From Acholeplasmatales bacterium (lineage in GTDB: Bacteria; Bacillota_I; Bacilli_A; Acholeplasmatales; JAEDCM01), in assembly GCA_017961685.1 (NCBI GenBank), contig JAGCWW010000003.1:1-64000 (forward strand): a stretch of 64,000 nucleotides of DNA, written 5' to 3'. Positions 59,822 through 62,474 of the stretch are shown here, piece after piece. The stretch's first letter is position 1. Each line of letters opens with the position of its first letter. Below the pieces are notes generated by a model, which saw only the letters and a list, made by a program, of their open reading frames with translations, did no database searches and had not been told where the DNA came from. The position numbers and the translations under genes were made by a program.

Positions 59822-60259
59822 TTAAATCTCAAGTAGAATTGTTGTTGGACCGACATTTGTGATTTTTACATTCATATCAGCACCAAAAATTCCTTCTTCG
59901 ACTACTAAGTTATAATCTTTTCTTAAAATTTCATTAAATTCTAAATATAATTCTTTTGCACCATCTTTTAGTGCAGATGTAAATGATGGTCTATTACCTT
60001 TTCTTGCATCACCATATAAAGTGAATTGTGAAATAGATAAAATCTTTCCATCAACATCTTTAATTGATAAATTAAGTTTATCATTACTATCAGGAAATAT
60101 TCTTAAATTAGCGACTTTATAAGCCATTTTTTTAACAATTTCAATATTATCATCTAAGCCAAAGCCTACTAAAAGCATATATCCTTTATCAATTTGTCCA
60201 TTTATTTTACCTTCAATTTCAACACTTGCATCTATTACTCTTTGTACTACAACTCTAAT
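59822..60259 (-). CDS. dtd: D-aminoacyl-tRNA deacylase, probable AUU start
   Basis: 145 residues if started at the ATT at 60259-60257. It hydrolyses D-aminoacyl-tRNA. Family landmarks: RVVVQRV at the start, LNLSIKDVDG, SQFTLYGDARKGNRPSF and TNVGPTT (Gly-cisPro site, with Thr where Val is usual). The first ATG (60178) would remove the first 27 residues, including the RVVVQRV strand; no ATG, GTG, TTG or CTG occurs in frame between it and the TAG eight codons above. ATT lies exactly at the family's Met position, overlaps the relA stop (ATTAG) and restores normal length. Confidence 0.85.
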   Translation of the reverse strand: MRVVVQRVIDASVEIEGKINGQIDKGYMLLVGFGLDDNIEIVKKMAYKVANLRIFPDSNDKLNLSIKDVDGKILSISQFTLYGDARKGNRPSFTSALKDGAKELYLEFNEILRKDYNLVVEEGIFGADMNVKITNVGPTTILLEI

Positions 60260-62441
60260 TGTTATCTCTTTCTACTTGTATAACATTCTTAATCTTTTGG
60301 ATATTATTTATTAATGTTTGTAATTCATCAATATTTTTAACCAAAATCTTAATCTTTGTTACAACAAGTCCATCTTCTTTTTGGTTTGCTTGCAAAGATA
60401 ATATAGAAGAGTTAGATGAAGTGATAGTTGAAATTAAATCCGCAAATATAGAATTATTTTGTGAAATAACTTTAATTCTACAAGAATATTTCTTTTCGTT
60501 ATTTCCTTCCCAGAATACTTCTACGAATCTCTTTTTATCTAAATCTTGGATATTCTTACAGTTAATAGAGTGGACAATTACTCCATTACCCTTAGAAATA
60601 TAACCAACGATTGGATCTCCTGGTATACAGTTACAGCAGTTACCTAACTTTACTTCAGCATTGCTTACACCTGAAACAATAATACCAGTTGATTTATTTG
60701 CTTTTACAATTCTTTCTGTTTTAGCGATTTGCTTTTGTAAAGTATCTTCATAATGATATTCTTTACCTAAAAGCTTAGCTACAACAGTTTTTGGACTTAC
60801 AATTTTCTTAGCAATTTCAACGTATAAATCTTCAATTGTTTCGATTCCTTGACGTTGGAAATGTTTTCTAATAAATTCTTGAGTAACTTCAGAATTAACT
60901 TTATTAGCAATAATTTCTTTTTCTAAGTCTTCTCTACCACGTTCAATCATTTCATCACGGTATTTATTACTTAAGAAACTCTTGATTTTAGCTCTTGCAT
61001 GTCCTGTAGTTACTTTCTTTAACCAATCTTCTGATGGCCCTTGAGAATTCTTTTGTGTTCTAATATTTACAATATCACCAGTTTTTAAAACAGTATCTAA
61101 GACAACATTTTTATTGTTTATTGTTGCTCCAACAGCATTATTACCTACATCTGTATGAATTTTATAGGCATAATCTAGTACTGTTGCACCTTGTGGTAAG
61201 GCGATAACTTCTCCTTTAGGTGAGAATACATAAATATTAGTATCAAGTAAATCAGTTTTAACAGCATCAACGAATTGGGTTGGGTCTCTATTAATGTCTT
61301 GATCCTTAGATAGCATTAATAATTCACCATACCATTTTAGTTTTGTTGCCATTTCAAATTGAATCTTATCTTTTGAATAAGTTTTATTTTCTTTATATGC
61401 CCAGTGAGCAGCGATACCTACTTCCGCTACATCATCCATATCCTTAGTTCTTATTTGAATTTCAAATATTTCACTATTTACACCAACTACTGTTGTATGT
61501 AGTGATTGATAAAGATTTGGTTTAGGCACTGCGATATAGTCTTTAAAACGTTTAGGTAGTGGTACAAAGTGAGCATGTATAATACCTAATGCTTGATAGC
61601 ATGTTTCAATTTTATCAACTATTATACGTATAGCTAATAAATCGTAGATATCATCAAAATCACGATTTTTTTCATACATTTTCTTGTAGATAGAATAAAT
61701 ATTTTTAATTCTACCTTTTATTTCATATTTCTTTAACTTAATTGTTTTAAAATGTTCTTCAATTGCCGAAATCATTTCTTTAATCAAGTTTTCTCTTTCT
61801 GTTTTCTTTGCGTTAATTAAATTAGTGATGTGATAATAAATATCAGGGTTTTCATATCTTAAAGCTCTATCTTCAAGTTCAGCTTTAATTTTGAACATAC
61901 CTAATTTGTGAGCAAGTGGTGCATAAATTTCTAGAGTTTCTTTTGCCTTTCTTATTTGGGCTTCCCTAGGCATTGCATCCATTGTACGCATGTTGTGTAA
62001 TCTATCAGCAAGTTTAATTAAAATAATACGAATATCATTTGCCATAGCAAGTAACATCTTTTGATGTGTTTCAGCTAGAGCTTGTTCTTTTGAAGATTCG
62101 AAAGTGATTTGGTTAATCTTTGTTACACCTTCAACTAAATAAGCAATATCGTAGCTAAAGTTTTCTTTGATATCTTCAAATGATGCATCAGTATCTTCTA
62201 TCGTATCGTGAAGTAGTGCTGCGGCTATAGTTACTGGTTCAACTGATAATTCAGAAAGTATATAAGCTACTGCAAGTGGGTGAATGATATATGGTTCACC
62301 TGTTCTTCTAAACTGATTAGCATGCTTTAAAAGAGCATAGTTATATGCCCTATTAATTAGGTTTAAGTTTTCATCCTTCTTTAAATATTTACGACAACTT
62401 TCTAGTAAGTCATCAATAGTTACATTTTTAACCTGTGACAT
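60255..62441 (-). CDS. Bifunctional (p)ppGpp synthetase/hydrolase
   Basis: 728 residues, Rel-type. The HD hydrolase domain is intact (ALLHDTIEDT near 76-85), followed by the synthetase domain (GRIKNIYSIYKKM, RFKDYIAVPKPNLYQSLHTTVVG), TGS (VFSPKGEVIALPQGATVLDYAYKIH), a zinc-finger-like region (GNCCNCIPGDPIVGY) and a C-terminal ACT domain. It makes and degrades the alarmone of the stringent response. ATG at 62441 is preferred to the in-frame start at 62459 because GGATGTG lies just before it. Followed by dtd, the common rel-dtd pair. Confidence 0.95.
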   Translation of the reverse strand: MSQVKNVTIDDLLESCRKYLKKDENLNLINRAYNYALLKHANQFRRTGEPYIIHPLAVAYILSELSVEPVTIAAALLHDTIEDTDASFEDIKENFSYDIAYLVEGVTKINQITFESSKEQALAETHQKMLLAMANDIRIILIKLADRLHNMRTMDAMPREAQIRKAKETLEIYAPLAHKLGMFKIKAELEDRALRYENPDIYYHITNLINAKKTERENLIKEMISAIEEHFKTIKLKKYEIKGRIKNIYSIYKKMYEKNRDFDDIYDLLAIRIIVDKIETCYQALGIIHAHFVPLPKRFKDYIAVPKPNLYQSLHTTVVGVNSEIFEIQIRTKDMDDVAEVGIAAHWAYKENKTYSKDKIQFEMATKLKWYGELLMLSKDQDINRDPTQFVDAVKTDLLDTNIYVFSPKGEVIALPQGATVLDYAYKIHTDVGNNAVGATINNKNVVLDTVLKTGDIVNIRTQKNSQGPSEDWLKKVTTGHARAKIKSFLSNKYRDEMIERGREDLEKEIIANKVNSEVTQEFIRKHFQRQGIETIEDLYVEIAKKIVSPKTVVAKLLGKEYHYEDTLQKQIAKTERIVKANKSTGIIVSGVSNAEVKLGNCCNCIPGDPIVGYISKGNGVIVHSINCKNIQDLDKKRFVEVFWEGNNEKKYSCRIKVISQNNSIFADLISTITSSNSSILSLQANQKEDGLVVTKIKILVKNIDELQTLINNIQKIKNVIQVERDNN

Positions 62442-62474
62442 AATAATCACATCCTTCATCGTGCAAATTTCTTT

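Follow-up and report, generated by a model that had tools for sequence, protein, structure and literature searches.

An AUU codon overlapping the relA stop as the probable start of dtd in a family of Acholeplasmatales

Results

Overview of the locus

The proofreading gene for D-aminoacyl-tRNA deacylase (dtd) of this Acholeplasmatales bacterium is very probably initiated at an AUU codon, which overlaps the stop codon of a relA/spoT homologue directly upstream and has been retained in the three species sequenced from the host's small, uncultured family. Taken as a whole, translation from AUU, with a Shine-Dalgarno (SD) sequence inside relA and coupling to relA translation as the predicted mechanism, is the best explanation of the locus, at a probability of roughly 0.85. 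It is favoured by coding constraint, the alignment of Met1, the SD spacing and the conserved overlapping junction. The direct basis is the sequence, its conservation, the coding constraint and the Met1 alignment, and from these we infer the initiation event, the coupling, the effect of IF3 and the reason for the persistence of the codon. Positions refer to the window, that is, the whole stretch of 64,000 nt that was analysed. A preliminary description had correctly placed the gene at 59822-60259, without giving a strand; it lies on the minus strand. The features are:

62459..60255, minus strand: relA/spoT homologue of 734 aa that immediately precedes dtd (TIGR00691, 720 bits, positions 1-687 of 687)
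60264..60274, minus strand: Shine-Dalgarno-like UAGAAAGAGAU within the relA 3' end (duplex of -7.5 kcal/mol with the 16S tail of the order, GGAUCACCUCCUUUCUA)
60274..60272, minus strand: upstream in-frame TAG that closes the dtd frame
59822..60259, minus strand: dtd, encoding D-aminoacyl-tRNA deacylase; 145 codons counted from ATT, then the TAA stop
60259..60257, minus strand: ATT, proposed initiation codon at the Met1 position (identical in 3/3 family genomes)
60257..60255, minus strand: relA stop TAG, its T being the third base of ATT
60256..60254, minus strand: AGA, second dtd codon
60178..60176, minus strand: internal ATG, the gene-finder choice for the dtd start (118 aa product)
59824..59822, minus strand: dtd stop TAA

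The dtd frame and its product

The relA gene ends with GTA GAA AGA GAT AAC AAT TAG, and across this end the dtd frame reads TAG AAA GAG ATA ACA ATT AGA GTT GTA GTA CAA AGA, so that the two genes overlap by 5 nt (ATTAG) with one base common to ATT and TAG, as had been proposed from the sequence at the outset. Reading of the frame also bore out the claim that ATG, GTG, TTG and CTG are absent between the upstream TAG (60274..60272) and the internal ATG (60178); the same stretch does hold near-cognates, namely one ATA that precedes ATT by two codons and, internally, several ATA and ATT codons. The earliest in-frame ATG, GTG or TTG is the ATG at 60178, from which the product would have 118 rather than 145 aa, the loss of 27 residues that had been predicted for gene finders.

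Judged by its profile matches, the product read from ATT is a full-length DTD. The dtd translation (P0001) matches TIGR00256 with 162.3 bits (cut-off 101.5, E=1.1e-47, residues 5-147) and PF02580 with 174.7 bits (cut-off 25), all 144 positions of the latter profile being covered, and it carries the DTD motifs SQFT (as SISQFTLYGD) and, at the C-terminus, NxGPxT (as TNVGPTTI). In an alignment with PDB 2dbo (E=1.8e-31), residue 5 of P0001, the Arg after the ATT codon, corresponds to residue 2 of 2dbo, which places ATT at Met1. Alignment to the DTD families gives the same position, in agreement with the view in the preliminary description that ATT stands where the family has its N-terminal Met.

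Shine-Dalgarno pairing and spacing

Pairing was assessed with the 16S 3' end of the order, GGATCACCTCCTTTCTA; the family's own 16S was searched for and not found. The aligned spacing of UAGAAAGAGAU to ATT is -1, the genome mode being +1, and among genes with a strong SD 178 of 207 have an aligned spacing of -2 to +4. The dtd SD is moderate, weaker than in about 64% of the sampled genes. Both alternative starts are out of register, with spacings of -8 for the upstream ATA and -5 for the internal ATG, which suggests that the SD spacing suits ATT and neither of the others.

Initiation at the ATA two codons upstream (ATA ACA ATT AGA), giving a protein that begins M-T-I-R-V, is improbable. This ATA is kept in all three species of the family, and AUA, known as a weak start, is predicted for the host infC gene too, but at its spacing the SD would abut the codon, and DTD would become two residues longer than the family length.

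Coding constraint upstream of the internal ATG

Coding constraint and homology extend up to the AUU of dtd, with no canonical start on offer. Between the host (G000) and one of the other family genomes (G001), dtd codons 2-27 have three differences, all at third positions and two of the three synonymous, and the pN of these codons (0.016-0.081 for the host against G001 and G002) is not above that of the rest of the gene. DTD residues 2-27 share 51.9% identity with 67 homologues from the order, and the remainder shares 52.2%. By these measures, codons 2-27 are unlike an untranslated stretch, and the protein begins before the internal ATG.

A start at that ATG, with the 27 upstream codons untranslated and DTD shortened, is accordingly a shade less probable again than a start at ATA. 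It would have the first canonical start codon, with AAAGGAUAU just upstream (duplex -5.8), but this SD match derives from the conserved codons for DKGYM, is out of register as given above and weakens in G002. The shortened protein would also drop the N-terminus seen in solved DTDs, and the discarded codons are under amino-acid constraint and conserved like the rest of the gene.

Synonymous codons are more often conserved near the relA-dtd junction (19/21) than elsewhere in both genes (287/516; Fisher P=0.0008), for a region that was picked after inspection. Within dtd, a run of 32 nt in codons 6-16 (window 60244-60213, minus strand) is identical in all three species. It is the longest identical run of the relA-dtd region, and synonymous constraint there continues past the start codon.

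Conservation of ATT and the relA-dtd overlap

The host's family is represented by three genomes (G000, the host; G001; G002), and the junction CAAGTAGAAAGAGATAACAATTAGAGT (27 nt) is without any difference in 3/3 of them, the DTD proteins of the other two being 95% and 83% identical to that of the host. Comparison of the junction in close relatives had been proposed as a check, and it found ATT in both other family genomes, with ATG confined to the order's other families; relatives with ATG at the dtd start have a relA/dtd overlap of a different length from that of the host's family. Outside the family, 67 anchored dtd genes from the order were compared, and the start position holds ATG in 66 of them and GTG in one; the more distant dtd loci with junction sequence that were inspected all have ATG or TTG. 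On this distribution, ATT is derived within a single family, from an ancestral ATG-start overlap, and its occurrence in three genomes probably represents one evolutionary event. Elsewhere, a switch from AUG to AUU was recorded for 1 of 61,358 reconstructed ancestral AUG starts (PMC5622118).

Across the order, the spacing between relA and dtd is -4 nt in 48 cases, -1 in 12 and +1 or +2 in five, and because these gaps are mostly -4 or -1 nt the tight junction is best read as ancestral in the order. With its 5-nt overlap, the host pair has the overlapping or closely spaced stop and start that are typical of termination-reinitiation pairs. Two genes that overlap by 5 nt use a single base both to end the start codon and to begin the stop, and this base is always T; ATG, GTG and TTG are therefore impossible, the start codon must end in T, and ATT is the natural near-cognate. 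A T-to-G change at the shared base (ATT to ATG) would turn the relA TAG into GAG and add 12 residues to RelA in each of the three species.

A fusion of RelA and DTD by a +1 frameshift near the relA stop, with a P-site shift of the tRNA from AAU to AUU, is less probable still than a start at the internal ATG. In its favour, dtd is read in the +1 frame with respect to relA, this frame runs on across the stop, and the junction is unusually conserved. Against it, the Asn-tRNA would meet AUU with a U-U mismatch at the middle base, relatives in the order begin dtd with ATG at the same place, and the junction has no slippery site and no RNA structure beyond chance (fold z=0.32). A sequencing or assembly error hiding an ATG might be suspected in a draft assembly of 84 contigs and 82% completeness, but it is excluded for practical purposes because both other family genomes, which are divergent, match the junction at all 27 nt, and a change to ATG would also abolish the relA stop in all three.

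Other unusual starts and codes in the same genome

When 394 kb of host contigs (333 ORFs) were screened for upstream coding, dtd was the clearest case of coding before the first canonical start, with a few weaker candidates, in a screen that is blind to cases with a canonical codon nearby. The infC gene (L114:1455-1475, G000 C12; L115) has no ATG near its start and reads AAAGGAGTGATTTCT ATA ATA CCA, with an SD spacing of +2 at the first ATA, the same as in G001; an in-frame GTG inside its own SD is the likely pick of a gene finder. From this arrangement, the host infC appears to use an AUA start. On another contig, a surface-protein-like ORF (G000 C6:42639-42127, minus strand) has 91 coding-like codons before its first canonical start, after a TAG; it may be a disrupted gene or one more unusual start.

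A phage-like contig of 126.7 kb (G000 C4:1-126708; L165, L174-L178, L221) that was binned with the host reads TAG as an amino acid. Over its first 120 kb, ORF cover rises from 0.41 with the standard code to 0.89 when TAG is taken as sense, and the frame of a UvsX-like recombinase (phrog_97, E=1.8e-25) continues through TAG; ARAGORN detected no suppressor tRNA in the stretches that were examined. The presence of this contig in the bin makes TAG usage in the host relevant; a reassigned TAG would open the dtd frame to an upstream ATG in the host genome. This was rejected: among 285 host genes 78 terminate with TAG, coding cover hardly rises when it is read as sense, and the open frame from the upstream ATG is not conserved. 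In the host, TAG is a stop.

Discussion

In the proposed reading of the AUU start, AUU would be codon 1 of dtd and be decoded as fMet by initiator tRNA. The UAGAAAGAGAU motif in the last relA codons would hold a 30S subunit, or retain a ribosome immediately after its termination at the overlapping UAG, and AUU, which lies one base ahead of the P-site codon, would then move into the P site. Coupling of dtd initiation to relA is likely. Control of the AUU start by IF3 is expected from established knowledge: initiation at AUU would be weaker than at AUG and sensitive to IF3, so that DTD would be kept low and tied to relA translation. The codon would have arisen in the family ancestor from an ATG-start overlap, and have been held in part by the relA stop. 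That is, the rare ATT may persist partly because the one-base change to ATG would destroy that stop; just as possible is selection to keep DTD output low. It can be suggested tentatively, at less than even odds, that the -5 ATTAG overlap is a distinct start/stop arrangement, in which dtd is locked into a rare start by the relA stop, and relA translation and IF3 determine how much DTD is made. This geometry was not found described in the literature searched, and the search returned no paper on an AUU start for dtd.

The infC gene, encoding IF3, is known for AUU, AUA or AUC starts that are disfavoured by IF3, and it combines a strong SD with autoregulation. Like it, dtd has a near-cognate start that differs from AUG at the third base, whereas its SD is moderate and lies inside relA, and there is no link to IF3 function. 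A second parallel is pcnB of Escherichia coli, a different gene, which also has an AUU start outside infC; to our knowledge, no stop-codon overlap is known for it. The pcnB start limits expression (Binns and Masters 2002, as cited in PMC9410913). In Staphylococcus aureus, the starts of infC (AUA), ccpN (AUA) and cvfC1 (AUU) have been verified, and non-canonical starts there gave about 10% of AUG output, in poor medium (PMC13009471). The ccpN and cvfC1 starts resemble that of dtd in being conserved, non-canonical and paired with an SD in Bacillota, but they have strong, extended SDs and were verified by initiation profiling and reporters.

IF3 represses non-canonical starts (PMC5472188), and the GTC start of Streptomyces sigR, like the one proposed here, is IF3-sensitive and belongs to a translationally coupled pair, although in that case the upstream gene carries the non-canonical codon, and dtd is the downstream gene of its pair (PMC5472188). 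Termination-reinitiation has been described for ATGA and TGATG overlaps (PMC6728339), and the relA-dtd pairs of the order use the corresponding -4 and -1 spacings; the host family differs in its -5 ATTAG overlap, which is impossible for ATG, GTG or TTG.

Apart from infC, few bacterial genes are known to begin with AUU, and dtd would be a new addition to this short list. Gene finders that accept only ATG, GTG and TTG would give a DTD that is 27 residues short in the whole host family. The relA-dtd case would indicate how a rare start codon can arise from, and be maintained by, overlapping genes; it also bears on whether a terminating ribosome can restart at an AUU one base away. If the reading is true, the gene of an ordinary enzyme would be tied to a rare start by the stop codon of its neighbour, in a -5 overlap open only to start codons that end in U.
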